IMG/VR virus record: IMGVR_UViG_3300027821_000012
Location: 1-40,151 of that record
Direction: 5' to 3' (one strand)
Source: a virus
Length of the DNA stretch: 40,151 nt
Shown: positions 2,153 to 16,922 of the stretch, piece by piece
Layout of the letters: each line of letters begins with the position of its first letter
How positions within the stretch are numbered: the stretch's first letter is position 1
The notes under the pieces: generated by a model
What the model was told of the DNA's origin: nothing
Database searches by the model: none
The model's input: the letters and a program-made list of their open reading frames with translations, nothing else
Translations under genes and position numbers: made by a program

Positions 2153-3340
2153 CTAAAAGTGGGCTAGAGAAGAAACGTCGAATTTTGAGGGTTGAAAATT
2201 CTCTTTGGCGACTAGAGACCTTCGAATCGCCCTATCCACGCCACTTTTGGACCGGAGCTCGAAATAATTCAGATCCGTAAAAGGCGTGTCCATCCGGTCA
2301 ATTCTGCCATGAGCCTGATGCCACATCTTATATGAGTACGTATATGAGTAGAAAAGTGAGGTATCTGTGGTAGTGCAATTCCACCCCTCAGACCCCGCTA
2401 CGTACTGCACAAAATAAAGCCAGTTTTCAGAAGTGGGCAGAAGTTCGTGCTTCCAACCATTCCATTCTGCGGTCTCGACATCCGCGTTCAGACGCCTCAA
2501 AATGTCGAGTTCGTAGTTGAAATTGTAGAAGATCACCATCTTCGGATGACGCCCGAGCAATCCCTCGATCTTCTTCGATCTCGATGGGTCACTATTGACC
2601 ACTCTACGCATCACTCCGAAGAGCTCTGCGATATCTTTGATGGGACGATTCTCATAGATATGCCAGCGATTCTTGAGTACATGCTGAACGAGCTCCTCGT
2701 TGTGCTCCACAGCCAACGTCACGTAGTGTTTGATCGTCTCGCTGGAGTACCGCATATGAACGAGAATACTGTCTCTTATCTTGTTCAGACGCCTTTCACC
2801 GATATAGCCGATGACCTTGGGAAACTTTGTGTGGGGCGCATAGCGCACGTGCTCGAGTTTGAATTGAGTCCTGTTAGCGTAGAACCCGTTGGCGATGAAA
2901 ACTGGGATATAGTCGAGCCATGTGTCTCCTGGGGTAGCGGACAACATGATCCAGTAGTTCTGACGAGCAATCTTGAGAAACGACCTTACCCACTTTCCAC
3001 TACCCACCAGCCGTTGTTCGTCGAAGATGAAGAAAGCACCATGAACGCCCGTGTACTTCTCGATGTTGTTCCAGCTGTCAACAGTGAGAACTCCATGAAC
3101 AGTGGCGTTCGGAGCGTTACCGACACCGATACGAGCGAAGTCGGTTTGCCAATCGATGCTGTCTCTCTTCTTCGCTGTGGTGATGACGAAGACGTCTCGC
3201 TCTTTGTGCTCGCGTTTGTAATAGGCCACAGCCACACGCGACTTACCAGAGCCAACTCCACCCCACAGGATGTTTCCGTTATCGAGCTGCTTTAGAGCGG
3301 CTTCTTGATGTGGTCTGAGGTCTAGCAACGTTCTCCTCAA
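2153..3340 (-). CDS. SF2 DNA helicase (DEAD/SNF2-like ATPase)
   Basis: About 390 residues. Superfamily 2 helicase motifs appear in order: a Q-motif-like RPHQEAALKQL, Walker A GGVGSGKS (residues ~27-34), Walker B FFIFDEQR (~104), motif III LSATPGD (~134), then a second RecA-like domain with MVIFYNF, YVAGSEGWNC and motif VI QAHGRIDR (~340). It should use ATP to move on DNA during phage replication or recombination. The start is uncertain: TTG at 3340 overlaps the upstream stop, while TTG at 3328 has GAGGAG just before it. From memory, very similar helicases accompany PolB and SSB-like genes in gut siphophages, so it is probably part of this replisome although encoded 5 kb away from the polymerase. 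Confidence 0.9.
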   Translation of the reverse strand: MRRTLLDLRPHQEAALKQLDNGNILWGGVGSGKSRVAVAYYKREHKERDVFVITTAKKRDSIDWQTDFARIGVGNAPNATVHGVLTVDSWNNIEKYTGVHGAFFIFDEQRLVGSGKWVRSFLKIARQNYWIMLSATPGDTWLDYIPVFIANGFYANRTQFKLEHVRYAPHTKFPKVIGYIGERRLNKIRDSILVHMRYSSETIKHYVTLAVEHNEELVQHVLKNRWHIYENRPIKDIAELFGVMRRVVNSDPSRSKKIEGLLGRHPKMVIFYNFNYELDILRRLNADVETAEWNGWKHELLPTSENWLYFVQYVAGSEGWNCTTTDTSLFYSYTYSYKMWHQAHGRIDRMDTPFTDLNYFELRSKSGVDRAIRRSLVAKENFQPSKFDVSSLAHF

Positions 3341-7399: not shown

Positions 7400-7593
7400 C
7401 GCGTATCCTCGTACAGTCCGGCAGGTAGCGCAGCCTGTACCACCGGTAGAACACGTTCGAGCAACTCAACGACCTTTTCTGGATCTCCTCGAAACACGAA
7501 ATAGAAGTCGTCCTTACCTTTGGGTGTTCCGATAGATATCCGAGTGTCTGCGATTAGGTCGTCAGGTTCTCGGATTATGGCGGCCTCCACCAT
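7396..7593 (-). CDS. Hypothetical protein of the replication cluster, 65 aa
   Basis: MVEAAIIREPDDLIADTRIS, then DDFYFVFRGDPEKVVELLER and a C-terminus PAGLYEDTR. A small alpha/beta protein; its start overlaps the SSB-like stop (TAATG). A similar short protein follows the SSB-like gene in related gut-phage gene clusters as I remember them, so it may act with the replisome. Confidence 0.65.
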   Translation of the reverse strand: MVEAAIIREPDDLIADTRISIGTPKGKDDFYFVFRGDPEKVVELLERVLPVVQAALPAGLYEDTR

Positions 7594-8066
7594 TATCGCT
7601 GAGGAACTTCGCTGTACTTCATCTCCAGAGGATCCTCTTCGATCACGACGAACATGCTCTGAAGATATGCGGTGATCCCGCTAGTACCGTCCTGCTCTCT
7701 TTCCCATGCGAACGGACGTACGATCAGGTCGACGTTGAGAATATCGGCCCAATCGAGCATCTCGACTTGAGCTTCGTCAAGGTTCACCCGTCCTCCACTG
7801 GTGACCAGAACGATTCGAGGAGGCTTCCAACTGTCGAAGTTGATCTTCACCTGCAGAAATGGTGGCCGATCGACATCCTCCTCGTCCCTTGGCTTCCTTC
7901 GTCTGATCTTCCACCCATCTGCGGCCATCGCAGCGGCCGTATCCTCATCGAGAACGACGCAGAAGTTTCGATCTCCGGGGTTGTTGTACTGTCTCTTCTC
8001 GCCCTTGAAGTTGCGATAAAGGATTCGTGCACCTTCGATCACAACAGTACCGTCACCTTGTGCCAT
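7593..8066 (-). CDS. Probable single-strand DNA-binding / replication accessory protein
   Basis: 157 residues, AAGGAG before the ATG at 8066. Features: IEGARILYRNFKGEKRQYNN, RNFCVVLDEDTAAAMAADGW, PFLQVKINFDSWKPPRIVLV, LDEAQVEMLDWADILNVDLI and an acidic C-terminal region FVVIEEDPLEM. Beta-rich with an acidic tail region, as in OB-fold SSB proteins. It lies 9 bases after the polymerase gene in reading order, and I recall similar proteins beside PolB and SF2 helicase genes in siphophages. Assignment as SSB is from context and fold expectation, not from a diagnostic motif. Confidence 0.6.
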   Translation of the reverse strand: MAQGDGTVVIEGARILYRNFKGEKRQYNNPGDRNFCVVLDEDTAAAMAADGWKIRRRKPRDEEDVDRPPFLQVKINFDSWKPPRIVLVTSGGRVNLDEAQVEMLDWADILNVDLIVRPFAWEREQDGTSGITAYLQSMFVVIEEDPLEMKYSEVPQR

Positions 8067-8075
8067 CTATGCTCC

Positions 8076-11000
8076 TTAGAACGGAGGAACGAGTGTGATG
8101 AGTTCCGTAAACGGAATGAACTTCTCGATTGTTGCGATAGCCTCATCCCTCAACTTAACGAAATATGACATGTCGATTTGGAGATCAGGCCAGGTCTTGG
8201 CAATCTCAGCTTCGATCCAGAGATGCCCCTTTGTTCCTGTTACGGCATAGTACTTGTCGTCTTTGACACGGTAGAGAGTGCCGCCGCCTTGTAGGACTGG
8301 AACAAATCGGCCAGTCCGACCAAGGTGACGCATCCGACGATGATCGAGAGTCTCGCGATTCTCATGATCTTCCTCCTTTGAGAGGTACATTGTCCCCTGA
8401 AGCACACTTCTGCTTTCACAGAAATCATCAAACGTGAGATCTTCTTCAGAGAACAGAGATTTGAATACATACGGGTGTTGGAACTGAGAGCCTACGGCGG
8501 TCCATTTTCCGTCCTTGACTGCGACGTAGACCGCATCGTTCACGAGACAGAGCTTGTCGTACGTGATCTCGTGCTCGAAGTCGTAACCGTATTTCTTTCC
8601 GAACTCGATTACGAAATCGATGGTTTCTTGTGTTACGCCCGGAAGTTTCACCGAGTCGGTCTTGATGTGGATGACCTGCTGTCCACGCTCTTGAAGAGCA
8701 TGTTTCAAGTCGATCATGAACAGAGCACCACGCTTGGCGACGATGTTGTCCTTGTTTCGTGGATCCATGAACGGGTTCGGGAACTTCGCCGACGTCAACC
8801 CGTACACGATGTTGATGACGATCTTAAGAGCGTATGCCAGCTTGTCCGCTCCATCTTCATGCTCAAGATATGGAGCAAGTCGACCGTCCATCATCTTCCG
8901 TGCACTCTCGTAATCGCCCCTCTTGATCGCTAGACGCGCCTCTTTTAGGGCCGAGAAGTTGGCCGTGTACGGGCCGAAGAGATCGAGTATCTCAATCGAG
9001 GTCGGGTGCATCGAAGCGACATCCAAAAGAGCAACGTTGGAATAACACCCAGGTTCAGCGTATACGTAACCACCTTCACCGGGGCATTCTCCACGGTAGT
9101 GACTGACGCCTGAATCAAACGAATATCCATCGAACTCCTCTGCGAGATTTGTGTACACGAAGTACTTCTGCGGGTTCTTCTCTTTCCCGAATATGATCTG
9201 AGCGGTATGTCTCTGAGTAGTGTCGTTCACGGTCAATCCGCTAAGTTCTGCGAGGATTTGCCGTGCTACGAAATCTTCCCAGCGATCTTCGAGCACCGCC
9301 TCAGTGGCTCGAACATCGTTGACACAATATTCCACTACTCGCGCCCAATCACTTTCGTCGACGGGTTGATCAAGAGGTAGATCCAACTCCATGTGATGGA
9401 TTCCTAGATCGATCTCGAACTTCTTGAGACTCTGTTTGACCGAACTGAAATCCCACACGTCGGTGTACGACAGGTTGTACGCCTGAGCGAAAAATGCGTT
9501 ACGGTTACCATCGATGACAATCTTTCGGGTCAGCTTGTACAGTTGTTCGACCGTGTAACCTAGCATCGCAGCGTAGAGAATATGGTTGTCGAAGCGTCGA
9601 TTGTAGAAACCGACCAACTTCGTCTTGCATAGATTCTCAATTTCCTCGCGCGAAGGATTGATCATACGAACAACTGTGTCGTCGCCTTTGAACTTCCAAC
9701 AGACAACGAACAAATTTGGATAGACCTCGATGTCGAATATGACCATTCGTGGATCGCTCACTTCGACAGATATGTCCGGATCTCCTTCAAGATCGTGTTC
9801 GGACTTGAACTTCATCGTTTGAACCGTCTTCAAGCACGTTGTCGCTTGATTCGTACTGTTGTTTGCGAACGCCAATATCCGTGTTCGCATGTCCGTCACG
9901 TCGTACTGCAGCCCATCCTCGTAGGCTTCTTCGAGAATATGAGCAATGAAGTCGATAGACGGCTTGGTTCCCGGATGGATCTCCTTCTTGAGGTTCCGCT
10001 CAATTAGTTCTCGGAGACCCTTCTCACTAGTAACCGTCTTAGCCTTAAGCATCTTCTCCTTCTTCTGTTTGAGCGGAAGCCCACTGCTTATGCCCGAAAC
10101 AGGAATGGAATTACACAGCGTAACACGTCGTCTCAGAGATGAGTCTCCCGTATAGACCTTGATCTCGATTCCTTCAGAATATACGGTAGCCAACTCCGAT
10201 GTGTCACCAGGATACACGTAATGGAGATGTACTCCAGTACCCGACTTACTGAGCTCGGCGTATGTCGGTGGCCACCGACTCGCTGCCTCAAGATTACGTT
10301 CGAGCGCGGATATACCGTTACCTCCGTGAAGATCGAAGTCAATCACGATGTGATTTTCTGGGACCTTTACGAAGTGAACCTTGTTTGTAGCAATATCTGA
10401 AAGTGTCGTCGTAACATTCGCCCAGGCTTTCAGAGGAGTTTCGTCTTTGCTCGCCAACTGGGCCGGTTGGTCCGCAAACAAGGCGTCCAGCAGTGACTCT
10501 GTTTCCTCCATAACAAGCGAGAACGCTGGAAGTTCTTCGCCTATGTCTTTCGGGAACTTGAACTTCTCTGCGTTGAAGCCGAAATATACGCTACGGAATC
10601 TTTCGCCGTTAACTTCAGCACGGTCCTTGAACTCATCGTAGTAGTTTCTCAGCTCTTCGCGTATCTTATACTGCGCACGAGGTTCGATTCCATTCTCGGA
10701 ACAGAACTCCTTGTACAAGCCGTAGGCCTGTTTCAAGGTGATGTAGTCCTGCTTCTTGAGCACGTCGTAATATGCCTCGATGAAATTGAAGAAGACGTCG
10801 GTTTGCAACATCATCTCTAGGGGACGGTAGCCGTTGTAAGCGTTCTTACCCATCTCCAAATATACCTTGAGGCAATGAGTCGCGATTGATCCCAACTCAA
10901 AGTCGATCTGACTCATCAAGGTCGTGTAATGTCGAACCGGGATTCTTACGCCTGTAGGGTGAATATCGATGAGTCTGCGAATTATTCCCGATTTGGCATC

Positions 11001-11843
11001 TGTGATCTTGACTGGCTGGTTCGACCCAAGAAAGAGAAGTGCGTTCGAACGTGCTGTGTAACTCGGCTTATACTTCTCGTTCATCGTCATCTGTTCGTGT
11101 GAGACGATGGAATTCAGCCGAGTGTTGTCGTCGATTTTGGAAAGATCAGCATCGTGCTGAATCGCAACCAAGGGGTTGTTCCGAAACGCTTCGGTTGAGA
11201 AATTTCCGTCGGATCGACCTAGGGCTTTCCCGTCAAAGGTCGTGGTGTAACCTTCGAACAGTTTCTCTATGATATTGAGGATAGTAGACTTACCGGATCC
11301 AGCAGGTCCATAGAATACGAAGAACTTCTGCAGTTTCTTCGAATCTCCCGCCACGATGGATCCGATAGCCCACTCGATCTTGGCTCTCTCCTCAATGGAA
11401 TATAGCGTGCCGACTAGCTCATTCCAAGCCGAAATATCGCCCTCTTCAAGCGGGTAAGACAAAGTCTTGCTCACGTAATCGGTTCTCTTTACTTCAGAGT
11501 TTAGAAACGTGAGCGAGGAGTCAAGAGGACGACTGCTGTCGCTGATGTGTGCCAGGAATTTTCGGAAATGCGCCCACGACTGACTTTGAAACGAGCGCAT
11601 GGACTTTACGGTGAATATGAGTCCTGTCTCAGCGTGCAACCTTGCAGCTTCGGCGTCCAGCTCTTCATCTACAAGTCGTTGCACGTCATATTCATCGCGT
11701 GACCAGAATCCCCGAGCTTCATCCCAGATAGCGTAGAAGGTTCGACCTTGTACCATCAGATCCCTAGAACGACCGACTATGAAGTCAGGATATACTTCCC
11801 ATCCTGCCTTCGTCTCTCTAGTTCGGATCTGATAGAAATCCAT
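8076..11843 (-). CDS. Fused SF3 helicase - PrimPol primase - family B DNA polymerase
   Basis: About 1255 residues from the ATG at 11843, which overlaps the upstream stop (TGATG) and follows AGGGGGG. Domains in order: N-terminal region; SF3 helicase with Walker A GPAGSGKST (~178), QHDADL, LLFLGSNQPV and IIRRLIDI; archaeo-eukaryotic primase motifs VIDFDLHGGNG (~500) and SGTGVHLHYVY (~535); family B polymerase with exonuclease motifs DIEVYPN (~702), NRRFDNH and YCVNDVRA, then motif A DVASMHPTSI (~940), motif B KIVINIVYGLTSAKF (~1006) and motif C IKTDSVK (~1060). All key Asp and Lys residues are present. It should unwind, prime, extend and proofread in one chain. Usually primase and helicase form one protein with the primase first, and the polymerase is separate; here the helicase comes first and all are joined. 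Confidence 0.92.
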   Translation of the reverse strand: MDFYQIRTRETKAGWEVYPDFIVGRSRDLMVQGRTFYAIWDEARGFWSRDEYDVQRLVDEELDAEAARLHAETGLIFTVKSMRSFQSQSWAHFRKFLAHISDSSRPLDSSLTFLNSEVKRTDYVSKTLSYPLEEGDISAWNELVGTLYSIEERAKIEWAIGSIVAGDSKKLQKFFVFYGPAGSGKSTILNIIEKLFEGYTTTFDGKALGRSDGNFSTEAFRNNPLVAIQHDADLSKIDDNTRLNSIVSHEQMTMNEKYKPSYTARSNALLFLGSNQPVKITDAKSGIIRRLIDIHPTGVRIPVRHYTTLMSQIDFELGSIATHCLKVYLEMGKNAYNGYRPLEMMLQTDVFFNFIEAYYDVLKKQDYITLKQAYGLYKEFCSENGIEPRAQYKIREELRNYYDEFKDRAEVNGERFRSVYFGFNAEKFKFPKDIGEELPAFSLVMEETESLLDALFADQPAQLASKDETPLKAWANVTTTLSDIATNKVHFVKVPENHIVIDFDLHGGNGISALERNLEAASRWPPTYAELSKSGTGVHLHYVYPGDTSELATVYSEGIEIKVYTGDSSLRRRVTLCNSIPVSGISSGLPLKQKKEKMLKAKTVTSEKGLRELIERNLKKEIHPGTKPSIDFIAHILEEAYEDGLQYDVTDMRTRILAFANNSTNQATTCLKTVQTMKFKSEHDLEGDPDISVEVSDPRMVIFDIEVYPNLFVVCWKFKGDDTVVRMINPSREEIENLCKTKLVGFYNRRFDNHILYAAMLGYTVEQLYKLTRKIVIDGNRNAFFAQAYNLSYTDVWDFSSVKQSLKKFEIDLGIHHMELDLPLDQPVDESDWARVVEYCVNDVRATEAVLEDRWEDFVARQILAELSGLTVNDTTQRHTAQIIFGKEKNPQKYFVYTNLAEEFDGYSFDSGVSHYRGECPGEGGYVYAEPGCYSNVALLDVASMHPTSIEILDLFGPYTANFSALKEARLAIKRGDYESARKMMDGRLAPYLEHEDGADKLAYALKIVINIVYGLTSAKFPNPFMDPRNKDNIVAKRGALFMIDLKHALQERGQQVIHIKTDSVKLPGVTQETIDFVIEFGKKYGYDFEHEITYDKLCLVNDAVYVAVKDGKWTAVGSQFQHPYVFKSLFSEEDLTFDDFCESRSVLQGTMYLSKEEDHENRETLDHRRMRHLGRTGRFVPVLQGGGTLYRVKDDKYYAVTGTKGHLWIEAEIAKTWPDLQIDMSYFVKLRDEAIATIEKFIPFTELITLVPPF

Positions 11844-12367
11844 CACATCCCCCCTAGAGCATTCATCTCGATTACGTAAGCATTCATTTGGTACCAGATT
11901 TCGATCCGTCGTTGATCTTCTTCGGGGTGTTTTAGAGGAAAGAGCCCTCCCTGCCCGTTCGGCTCGTACGTTCTCCAGATCAAGCTCGCGATCGTCTGGT
12001 CGAGAATATCCGCTTTGCGATGTGTCAGCGGATCGTACATGCTGTGGAGATGAAGATTCTTGAGGAGCTTCCAAGCCCACGTATCTGCAGGCCAACTTGT
12101 CAAGAACTCCAATCTTCTGCTAAGCCCGATCAGAACTTCGAGGACAGAGACGGCCTCCATGCTCGGTGTGAATGCTGCGCCTTCGGAAAACTCTTCACGC
12201 AAATATCGAGCGTCTGCGATCCGATTCTCGTCGTGCTGGACCGAAGGCATACACACAAACTCCGTCGCATGGAGTCTATCGAACAACTCGTTGTAAGTCC
12301 GTCGACGCGGAGGCGTTCGAATTTGTGAAGTGAGCCAAGCAAAGTATTGGTAATCAACCCTCTTCAT
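11843..12367 (-). CDS. Conserved phage protein of the replication cluster, 174 aa
   Basis: MKRVDYQYFAWLTSQI from the ATG at 12367, overlapping the upstream gene by 14 bases and the polymerase gene by one base. Predicted helical: YNELFDRLHATEF, VSVLEVLIGLSRRLEFL, LLKNLHLHSMYD, then GGLFPLKHPEEDQRRIEIWYQMNAYV. I recall this pattern (GGLFxL near the end, EIWYQMNxY) in siphophages that share the DUF6353 neighbours. No enzyme motif. Tight coupling to the polymerase suggests a replication partner. Confidence 0.7.
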   Translation of the reverse strand: MKRVDYQYFAWLTSQIRTPPRRRTYNELFDRLHATEFVCMPSVQHDENRIADARYLREEFSEGAAFTPSMEAVSVLEVLIGLSRRLEFLTSWPADTWAWKLLKNLHLHSMYDPLTHRKADILDQTIASLIWRTYEPNGQGGLFPLKHPEEDQRRIEIWYQMNAYVIEMNALGGM

Positions 12368-13136
12368 GAGAGTCGAATCCAAGGACGTACTCTTCGTAGG
12401 ACTTGTCGACCCGAGTGACCTCCATCTCGAGCATTCGCTCTGGATTCCGGATGAACACGAGGTCCGGATCGGTTGATCCCACACCGAAGCGGAGATTGTA
12501 ATTCCCGATGACCTCTTCCGCGTTCGGAACTACTTCTCCGTCCTCGTTCGTCAGAACGTCGTCACGAGCGTAGTACGTCATCGCGGTTTGCGTCCATCCC
12601 GGACGAGGAAGACCATCTTCCGTTTCGTGGTACTCATCTTCATGGATCACGTGAGGCTCGCCTGGAATTCTCTTGGCGAGCTCCTCCTCGAAGTTCCATT
12701 GCGGGTCATGGACAGGCTTCGTGGGCTCCGGAGGTGGAGGAGCCCTGTGGTATTGGATGGGCTCCTGAACGGGAACCGGAGGCTTGAGTCGAGTCACCGT
12801 TGTGTCAGAACTCGCGTTCTCTGCTCCAGGTGAGCCTGCGTGAGCGTATCCCTGCCCCTTGACGATCTCCTCCGGCGTTCCAGGTTTCTCCTGCACAACA
12901 GCGCGAGCAGAATATGCCTCTCGGATCTGCTCGACCTCAGCCTTGCTCTCCTCGAATGCTTCCGCGCGAAGCTTCTCCTTCAGGTACTTGTGCCCGTAGT
13001 AGAACCCGATACCTGCGCCGATGATCAGACCGACACCGAAATATCCGAACCCGGCAGCGCTACCGATCTTGCGTGTCACTTCAGCCACCTCTTCGAGATT
13101 GGTGGCAATTTCCTCTGCGATCACTTCAGTTGCCAT
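12354..13136 (-). CDS. Membrane-anchored protein with coiled coil and Pro-rich linker
   Basis: 260 residues, with AGGAG upstream. N-terminal amphipathic segment, one transmembrane helix FGYFGVGLIIGAGIGFYYG (~30-48), a charged helix KEKLRAEAFEESKAEVEQ likely to be coiled coil, a Pro-rich linker (PPVPVQEP, APPPPEPTKP), and a C-terminal domain with PHVIHEDEYHE, MTYYARDDVLTNEDGEVV, EEVIGNYNLRFG and FIRNPERMLEMEV. I recall the C-terminal domain (YVIxxEEY ... LTYYxxDxVLTDE ... VxVRN) in gut siphophages. It is probably cytoplasmic, tethered to the membrane beside DUF6353 proteins. Confidence 0.7.
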   Translation of the reverse strand: MATEVIAEEIATNLEEVAEVTRKIGSAAGFGYFGVGLIIGAGIGFYYGHKYLKEKLRAEAFEESKAEVEQIREAYSARAVVQEKPGTPEEIVKGQGYAHAGSPGAENASSDTTVTRLKPPVPVQEPIQYHRAPPPPEPTKPVHDPQWNFEEELAKRIPGEPHVIHEDEYHETEDGLPRPGWTQTAMTYYARDDVLTNEDGEVVPNAEEVIGNYNLRFGVGSTDPDLVFIRNPERMLEMEVTRVDKSYEEYVLGFDSHEEG

Positions 13137-13144
13137 CAGGGCTC

Positions 13145-14053
13145 CTAGATCTTGTCGTAGATTGGACCGTCGACGTTGAAATCGAGCAGGATTGCACCTT
13201 CACGACCGTTCACAAAGTCGCGAACAACCTGCGTATCACCACGAAAAACGCCGAAGTCGATGAAGTTGTCACCCGTGTGAGTCGGATCGTTCGGACGCCA
13301 GAGCCATCCGACCACCTGACCAGCTTTGGTTCGAGGAATATCGAGCATGTCGTAGACCTCGTTTAGAAACACGTGCCCGCGAGATCGAAGTGTGTCGTTC
13401 GCCCAATTCTGCTGCGACTGAATGAAGAACATGTTGAGTTCGGGATCCTTGCTGAACGGTCGACATGCCTCGTCGAAGAACTTGGCGTAGATGGATTCTC
13501 CGTTCGGACCCACACGCTCGACGGTCTTCTTGCGACCCGTCTCCGGGTTGACGATCTCGACCTTCTCCGATCCATAACGAAGACGTCGATCTTCGTCTTC
13601 ACCGTACTTTTCGACGACACGCGCTCTGTACTCCTTGAATCCCCTGTCGAGAGCCGTGTACGCCGCGGACAGAGCTGCTGCTCGCTGTACGTGAATGCGA
13701 TTCGACGTTGCGATCAGAGCAAGACCGAAAGCGCCCGCAAGGATTGACGGTGCGTAGAGCCTGAGTGTCGCGACCGTGGACCTGTAGTAGATGATCGCGA
13801 TGTCACGTTGCCGATCCTGCTCGGTGTACTCGGTGTCCTCCATGTCTTTCGCGACCTCGAAGGCCTGATGCGCCTTCGAAATATCGTGCTTGGCCTTTCC
13901 CAAGACCTCGTCCATCTTGAGTGTGGCTCGACACGCCAGAACGGTGCTCCCCACCATGCTGACGGCCCCCGCAACAAGAAGAACTTCGGGGGAATTCTTC
14001 TGTGCGAGTGGAGAAGTGATCACTTTTCCAATCGCATCGGGAAGGAATCTCAT
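13145..14053 (-). CDS. DUF6353-type membrane protein, copy 1
   Basis: 302 residues, AGGAGG before the ATG at 14053. Two hydrophobic segments, PEVLLVAGAVSMVGSTVLAC (~22-41) and LYAPSILAGAFGLALIATS (~97-115), flank a charged helix (KMDEVLGKAKHDISKAHQ). After them come a helical RAAALSAAYTALDRGFKEYR and a long soluble C-terminal domain with NMFFIQSQQNWANDTLRSRG and VFLNEVYDMLDIP. Organisation matches the second gene at 16122-16922, so they are paralogs. The family name is from memory; function is unknown. Both lie in the membrane cluster just ahead of the replisome gene. Confidence 0.7.
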   Translation of the reverse strand: MRFLPDAIGKVITSPLAQKNSPEVLLVAGAVSMVGSTVLACRATLKMDEVLGKAKHDISKAHQAFEVAKDMEDTEYTEQDRQRDIAIIYYRSTVATLRLYAPSILAGAFGLALIATSNRIHVQRAAALSAAYTALDRGFKEYRARVVEKYGEDEDRRLRYGSEKVEIVNPETGRKKTVERVGPNGESIYAKFFDEACRPFSKDPELNMFFIQSQQNWANDTLRSRGHVFLNEVYDMLDIPRTKAGQVVGWLWRPNDPTHTGDNFIDFGVFRGDTQVVRDFVNGREGAILLDFNVDGPIYDKI

Positions 14054-15312: not shown

Positions 15313-15347
15313 CATTCCATTATAGGGCGAGTTTTACTCGCGACTAC
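15313..15347 (-). promoter_or_regulatory. Repeated promoter element
   Basis: Minus strand TCGCGAGTAAAACTCGCCC then -10 TATAAT (15319-15324). The stop codon region of the upstream 180-aa gene abuts it. Confidence 0.65.
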
Positions 15348-15886
15348 TCATCGATCACGACCTCGCCGGCTCCGAGCTGACGTCCAAGCTCTTCCAACTC
15401 TTCCGCGGGCGTCTTGAGAAACTCTTCCCGCGAAATATGACGTGGCTCTGGCTTTGGCACCTCCCTGAGCGTTGGTTCTTCTTCCTTCTTTTCTGCTGTT
15501 ACGAGTCCAGCCTGGCGAATTGCGTCTTCGGTTACTTCTCCAGGCACGACTCCACGCACAAACTCGATCTGAGCTTCTGTGCTGAAGATGAGCTCCATGA
15601 AAAATGCCGAATATGCCTCGCTTGCAAGAAACTCTTGACGAATCTCGTCGGTCTTGATGAACCGCCCACCTTCGCGAATTCCGTATGCCGAACTGACGAT
15701 GCGCTCAAATATCGCCATGATCTCTTTACCGTCTTGTGTCACGCCGAGACGTTTCAGAGATTCACTGAGACCACCGTGCTCACTGACCTCGAGTTTGACG
15801 ATTTCGGCCTGAGTCAGGTGGAAGTAAATATCCTCCACCACCTGATCACCGTCGAAGTTTGTGTACGTGACCGTTTTTTTGAGCAC
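15344..15886 (-). CDS. Conserved phage protein, 180 aa
   Basis: GTG start at 15886 with AAGGATAACTAC upstream. MLKKTVTYTNFDGDQVVEDI opens a domain continuing FHLTQAEIVKLEVSEHGG, IMAIFERIVSSAYGI, GRFIKTDEIRQEF and AYSAFFMELIFS. A less conserved charged tail follows (EKKEEEPTLREVPKPEP, then EELGRQLGAGEVV). I recall this N-terminal pattern (YTxFxGxxxxExFYFxLTxAE) from siphophage genomes, where some copies are annotated as tail-assembly proteins. Its position here among membrane genes, far from the tail block, leaves the role open. Confidence 0.6.
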   Translation of the reverse strand: MLKKTVTYTNFDGDQVVEDIYFHLTQAEIVKLEVSEHGGLSESLKRLGVTQDGKEIMAIFERIVSSAYGIREGGRFIKTDEIRQEFLASEAYSAFFMELIFSTEAQIEFVRGVVPGEVTEDAIRQAGLVTAEKKEEEPTLREVPKPEPRHISREEFLKTPAEELEELGRQLGAGEVVIDE

Positions 15887-16121: not shown

Positions 16122-16922
16122 TCACTCGTACATGCTCTCGTAACCCGTCTTCGGCATGGGATCGAAGTCGATCGCGATGCAAGGGCGTCCATCTGTGGAC
16201 ATCGTGGTCGAGTATTGCACGTTGAGTGGAAGATCCATGCACCACCCAACCGAGTCCGTGAACGTAGTTGCTCCGAGCCCCACGATCTCGAAGAACTCGG
16301 AGAGACTCGCATGGGATCGGTGAAGAAGCTGATGGTTGATGTCGTTCTCGGCCCCACGAAGCTTCTCCATCGAACTGGTGAAATATCGCCCCGTGAGGTT
16401 GTCGTAGCAGAGAACGTCTCCCGCACCAGTCATGATGACCTGGCTCCCCTCCACGGGATTCTTGTTAACACGATCCTGCGCGATCTCGTCTCGAACTTCC
16501 TCGGCCTTCTTCTCGCCGAGCTTCTGTGTGATCTTGTCCTTGTACTCCTGGAACGCTCTCTCCGTAACCGCCGAAGACATCGTCAAAGCCGCGATCTTCT
16601 TCGCATCGACACGATGTGCCACAACGATCGACGCGATCGTCACGAGTCCAGATGTGACCGCCGGCAAATATAGCGGCCAGACAGCTTTGACCTTCTCTTT
16701 AGTCGTTAGGTAAACCGGATCTTTGGTTTGATCTGGACCACCCGTATTAGCAATAACCGTTGCTTCTTCGATGACCTCTGCCGCCTTGAACGATGCCTTA
16801 CCCGTCAAGACTGCAGTTGTGACCGTTCCGACAACCCCCATCGCGGTGAGGATCGTCGTGGAGTTCTCGTTCACGAGGTACTTCATCTTGTTGGCGTGTG
16901 GCGCCAAGCTTTGAAGGATCAT
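16122..16922 (-). CDS. DUF6353-type membrane protein, copy 2
   Basis: 266 residues, AAAGGGACTC before the ATG at 16922. Two hydrophobic segments, STTILTAMGVVGTVTTAVLT (~22-41) and YLPAVTSGLVTIASIVVAH (~86-104), separated by a charged segment; then IAALTMSSAVTERAFQEYKD and a soluble domain with MTGAGDVLCYDNLTGRYF and LSEFFEIVGLGA. Shared features with the 302-aa copy: N-terminal ILTAxGxVG-type helix, second helix ending in a His/Arg-containing segment, AALxxAxxxxxxxFxEYxxR/K, and a soluble C-terminal domain of similar order. It likely acts at the membrane; possible hetero-oligomer with copy 1. Confidence 0.75.
   Translation of the reverse strand: MILQSLAPHANKMKYLVNENSTTILTAMGVVGTVTTAVLTGKASFKAAEVIEEATVIANTGGPDQTKDPVYLTTKEKVKAVWPLYLPAVTSGLVTIASIVVAHRVDAKKIAALTMSSAVTERAFQEYKDKITQKLGEKKAEEVRDEIAQDRVNKNPVEGSQVIMTGAGDVLCYDNLTGRYFTSSMEKLRGAENDINHQLLHRSHASLSEFFEIVGLGATTFTDSVGWCMDLPLNVQYSTTMSTDGRPCIAIDFDPMPKTGYESMYE

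Follow-up and report, generated by a model that had tools for sequence, protein, structure and literature searches.

The HelPrimPolB group was named in 2020 by Kazlauskas and colleagues for its domain order, SF3 helicase-PrimPol-PolB (PMC7544198). GP55 of Lactococcus phage 1706 was purified in 2025 and found to have helicase, priming, polymerase and proofreading activity, with dimerisation mediated by the helicase and hand-off from primase to polymerase in trans (PMC12205980). Unwinding was UTP/dTTP-dependent and the priming site was CCAAC; the aHD was required for priming, with both Y655 and F667 needed, and knock-outs were assayed at K189, D509, Y655, F667, D712, E714 and D949 (PMC12205980). 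The same phage genome encodes gp75 (L082 24083-27172), annotated as an RNA-dependent RNA polymerase.

The window, by which we mean the whole stretch of 40,151 nucleotides analysed here, contains a gene of this type, delimited as follows:

8076..11843, minus strand: HelPrimPolB / GP55-like replicase gene, 1255 aa (PHROG 4210 and 252 phage records)
11849..11855, minus strand: replicase Shine-Dalgarno sequence AGGGGGG, read directly from the sequence

An earlier note on this DNA had described one uninterrupted frame, and its coordinates and length of 1255 residues proved exact; the strand is minus, the plus strand of the same interval giving many stops on translation. The ATG lies at 11843-11841, 5 bases after AGGGGGG, and the TAA at 8076. 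A mechanical ORF call was longer (1339 aa from a TTG), and the start was placed at ATG 11843 because homologue matches begin at residue 1. PHROG 4210 matched residues 1-1249 with 1920 bits, and at least 80% of the protein was covered in 252 phage records, many of them annotated as "DNA primase/polymerase" or "DNA polymerase". Motif conservation was scored on an alignment of 79 full-length rows, GP55 included, in which the motif residues of all domains were invariant or nearly so. Against the nearest relatives, dN was 0.06-0.36 in every bin and dS about 1-5 or saturated, dN being much smaller than dS in all bins that allowed dS to be estimated; at the domain junctions dN stayed low (0.12-0.36). 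This confirmed a single constrained frame carrying an SF3 helicase, an AEP, a four-helix domain and a PolB with 3'-5' exonuclease. The highest synonymous conservation peak of the gene within the window's clade was located at residues 240-262 (window 11058-11126), at 1.37 of expectation.

The N-terminal part was assigned from the following features:

10554..11843, minus strand: SF3 helicase region, residues 1-430 (Pfam DUF5906, sequence match to PDB 7ola)
11286..11309, minus strand: Walker A GPAGSGKS, residues 179-186 (G179, K185, S186), with K185 invariant in 79 rows and equivalent to GP55 K189
10974..10979, minus strand: arginine finger R289/R290, invariant in 79 rows

Pfam DUF5906 scored above its cut-off at residues 177-290, and the region matched the sequence of PDB 7ola, a DNA primase; a TIGR01613 match fell under its cut-off. 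Together with N275 as SF3 motif C, these matches support the reading of residues 1-430 as a putative SF3 helicase.

The middle of the chain comprises a primase domain and a helical domain:

10062..10505, minus strand: AEP (PriS-like) primase domain, residues 447-594 (Pfam Prim-Pol, AF2 model)
10332..10340, minus strand: AEP motif I DFD, residues 502-504, with D502 and D504 invariant and D504 equivalent to GP55 D509
10227..10229, minus strand: AEP sxH histidine H539, within SGTGVHLHY, invariant
10164..10166, minus strand: AEP motif III acid E560, invariant, its role assigned by position in the motif
9819..10025, minus strand: aHD four-helix domain, residues 607-675, with four helices in the AF2 model

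The domain search around residues 480-640 that the earlier note had proposed returned Pfam Prim-Pol above cut-off in mid-chain. A sequence-profile search of the AEP domain against the PDB gave zero matches, and fold comparison was therefore used. The AF2 model of residues 447-594 matched NrS-1 PrimPol with Z 10 over 138 residues at 3.1 Å, compared with Z values of 7 or less for other AEP structures and unrelated chains. In the alignment, the aHD counterparts of GP55 Y655 and F667 are Y647 and F659. Fold matches of the aHD model were restricted to generic helical bundles, which do not count as evidence for a new fold.

The C-terminal part is a polymerase with a proofreading domain:

8097..9755, minus strand: family B polymerase with exonuclease, residues 697-1249 (AF2 model, profile match)
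9726..9734, minus strand: ExoI DIE, residues 704-706 (D704/E706), aligned with GP55 D712/E714
9588..9602, minus strand: ExoII, N748-D752 (79-row alignment)
9315..9329, minus strand: ExoIII, Y839-D843 (79-row alignment)
9021..9023, minus strand: PolB motif A, D941, equivalent to GP55 D949
8799..8813, minus strand: PolB motif B, N1011-G1015 (79-row alignment)
8652..8663, minus strand: PolB motif C KTDS, residues 1061-1064, in which all 79 rows, that of GP55 among them, keep K1061 and D1063

The AF2 model of this part had a pLDDT of 88, and its best fold matches were KOD, Pol alpha and E. coli Pol II (Z 15-17, ~450 residues). Foldseek returned archaeal PolB with E down to 2.9e-18, and E. coli Pol II was also matched by profile (E=2.5e-7). 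Lysine replaces the usual first aspartate of motif C throughout the family, which is no argument against activity because the active GP55 also has KTDS. Structure prediction, likewise proposed in the earlier note and run for the AEP, aHD and PolB parts, thus yielded matching folds for the first and last and four helices for the aHD. The motifs which that note had listed (SF3, AEP with DFD and SGTGVHLHY, and family B exonuclease and polymerase) were all found, invariant or nearly so in 79 relatives, and so was its order of SF3 helicase, AEP primase and proofreading PolB in one chain, backed by fold comparison for the AEP and PolB.

Not fully accurate was the remark that no internal Shine-Dalgarno sequence occurs at the domain borders: AAGGAG precedes an in-frame ATG598 at the AEP/aHD border, although with unconvincing spacing, and a strong out-of-frame sequence precedes ATG 8365 within the PolB region:

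8240..8365, minus strand: nested ORF in the +1 frame, 41 aa, with one predicted membrane segment (Shine-Dalgarno AAAGGAGG, ATG 8365)

The peptide, found by a scan of all frames, reads MRIARLSIIVGCVTLVGLADLFQSYKAAALSTVSKTTSTMP. An ORF of 30 aa or more, led by a Shine-Dalgarno sequence and starting with ATG or GTG, was present at this site in 22 of 24 sequences of a clade that was chosen after the ORF had been noticed. The next best position for such an ORF in the whole replicase gene reached 14. Residues 1157-1187 carry a synonymous conservation peak that ranks second in the gene. When sampled relatives were grouped by identity to the window protein, a membrane-like nested ORF was found in 35/37 at 70% or above, 4/17 at 65-70% and 3/134 below, counts that include near-duplicates and the same contig fetched twice, so that independent cases are fewer than counted. 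Members examined later also had it (L096, L097, L104, L025, L091 and L076), except for L111. The peptide gave no significant match in PHROG or Pfam and no match in phage records, searches in which 40-aa queries are weak.

These patterns point to a probable overprinted gene of one phage clade, predicted to encode a single-pass membrane peptide of ~40 residues with its own Shine-Dalgarno sequence; it may be new. As to its role, our guess is that it might act in host takeover, exclusion or lysis, or might tether replication to the membrane. Alternatively, there may be no gene here, and the ORF could have arisen as a side effect of codon constraint in PolB or could reflect an RNA element, given that its hydrophobic composition is partly dictated by PolB residues (e.g. 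VGRTGRFVPV) and that the nested-gene hypothesis was drawn from the same data. We consider this unlikely. Synonymous codon resampling with the PolB protein fixed (200 runs) gave a mean of 3.7 of 24 sequences with the ORF and a maximum of 7, against the 22 observed; 31.8 stops were expected in the segment against 6 observed; and peak hydrophobicity was 0.64 (standard deviation 0.13) in resampled sequences against 2.42. Synonymous divergence, too, was below the level that resampling predicts. Moreover, there is almost no signal in more distant relatives, and the predicted RNA at the site is not unusually structured (z -0.64), so that RNA structure finds no support as an explanation of the synonymous conservation.

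The in-frame ATG598 (window 10052, minus strand) raises the possibility of a second, shorter aHD-PolB protein of 658 aa. T7 gene 4 is an example of a replication gene with two products. Methionine occupies this position in 51/79 rows, 47 of which have a Shine-Dalgarno-like 4-mer upstream, and a modest synonymous conservation peak covers residues 583-613. Conversely, valine stands there in 22/79 rows, and the purine run doubles as codons of a conserved lysine-rich stretch. The distance from AAGGAG to the ATG is 3 nt, too short for a convincing Shine-Dalgarno sequence, and we rate a second product as quite improbable.

That an assembly or sequencing error joined two or three separate genes (the earlier note had considered a sequencing error merging two), as might be feared of a metagenomic contig of 40151 bases providing a single copy of the sequence, has a negligible chance of being correct and was excluded because the same fusion recurs uninterrupted in sequenced phage isolates, at 72/80 prokaryote-genome loci and on 71 or more IMG/VR contigs, with low dN over both domain junctions.

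The fusion was uninterrupted in at least 71/80 IMG/VR relatives: 71 of the 80 loci kept gave full-length frames for alignment, and the remainder were mostly cut by contig ends. Among prokaryote genomes, mostly Firmicutes by title, 72/80 loci had the whole fusion in one ORF, and at the other eight the ORFs start at a contig or locus edge. No split versions of the replicase were found among the relatives in IMG/VR and prokaryote genomes. A separate "helicase", gp55 of the Streptomyces phage CricKo (L083 2977-3474), was rejected as a split version: it is an additional SF3-like fragment with 27% identity, and the complete fusion, gp59, is encoded a few genes downstream of it. In one homologue, L022, the frame is interrupted by one TAG at about residue 908 (near position 7916), reflecting an error, a pseudogene or readthrough. 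In several cases one genome or MAG contained a pair of distinct HelPrimPolB genes, each on its own contig (L115/L116, L117/L146, L123/L186 and L145/L177), which suggests two prophages or phage contigs each.

We are highly confident in assigning the gene to the phage replicases of the HelPrimPolB / GP55-like family, the four activities, the dimer and the hand-off in trans being attributed by analogy with GP55. The N-terminal SF3 helicase would unwind template DNA and, judging from GP55, probably also dimerises the chain. The AEP and aHD would make short RNA primers, to be extended and proofread by the C-terminal PolB, with primer hand-off possible within one replicase subunit or between two. 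A downstream ssDNA-binding protein probably coats the template. The genes on either side are:

7593..8066, minus strand: ssDNA-binding / single-strand annealing protein, directly downstream of the replicase (PF24083, E=8.7e-57; PHROG 4787)
11843..12484, minus strand: conserved gene upstream, which overlaps the start of the replicase (PHROG 4678)

The ssDNA-binding gene beside the replicase fits a compact replication module. A similar-sized gene lies directly upstream of the replicase in Pherobrine, Scap1, Daddyjeff and contig89. A search for a second primase or polymerase among the window genes scanned turned up none; a separate helicase gene is present at 2153-3340 (PHROG 62). Elsewhere in the window, two PHROG 2152 paralogues (13145-14053 and 16122-16922, minus strand), the first of which also matches DUF6353, flank a tail assembly chaperone gene (15344-15886).

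With this replicase, a family for which we found one assayed enzyme gains members from actinobacterial phages, prophages of gut Firmicutes and uncultivated phages; over that wide range the positions probed in GP55, among them the two aHD residues needed for priming, are conserved. If translated, the nested ORF would be a gene overlapping the replicase of a dsDNA phage and gained at a sharp boundary within the family, which would make its origin by overprinting directly testable.

Among known systems, the window protein can be compared with GP55, with which it shares 40% identity over 1178 residues (1-1178), the order SF3-AEP-aHD-PolB, KTDS as motif C and a similar length (1317 aa in GP55, 1255 aa here). 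All seven GP55 positions checked were identical: K189, D509, Y655, F667, D712, E714 and D949 correspond to K185, D504, Y647, F659, D704, E706 and D941. GP55 differs in belonging to another host group and in falling outside the clade with the nested ORF; it also sits on a long branch of the within-family tree (1.84), so that UTP/dTTP use and the CCAAC site may not transfer to the window protein. NrS-1 primase-polymerase (PDB 6A9W, 7RR3) has a like AEP fold, matched with a Z of about 10 across 138-140 residues, whereas its helical accessory domain is another one and PolB is lacking (PMC12205980). An NrS-1-type primase-helicase, with the AEP N-terminal to the helicase and no PolB, was rejected since here the helicase precedes the AEP and PolB follows. 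The "DNA primase/polymerase" proteins of Gordonia, Rhodococcus, Arthrobacter and Streptomyces phages (e.g. Pherobrine gp63 and ReqiPoco6 gp72) are full-length homologues of about 50-62% identity, the replicase of Gordonia phage Pherobrine reaching 62% over 1250 residues; unlike the window, Pherobrine, Scap1, CricKo, Daddyjeff and ReqiPepy6 do not have the membrane-like nested ORF. No differences were found from the HelPrimPolB group, in which SF3 helicase and PrimPol are likewise N-terminal to PolB and motif C is also divergent (PMC7544198). The fusion to PolB, which the earlier note had taken as non-standard, is thus an architecture already described for that group (PMC7544198) and for GP55 (PMC12205980) and present in hundreds of phage records; the novelty implied there falls with these many homologues of identical architecture. 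The window replicase is best read as one more ordinary representative of a family already known.
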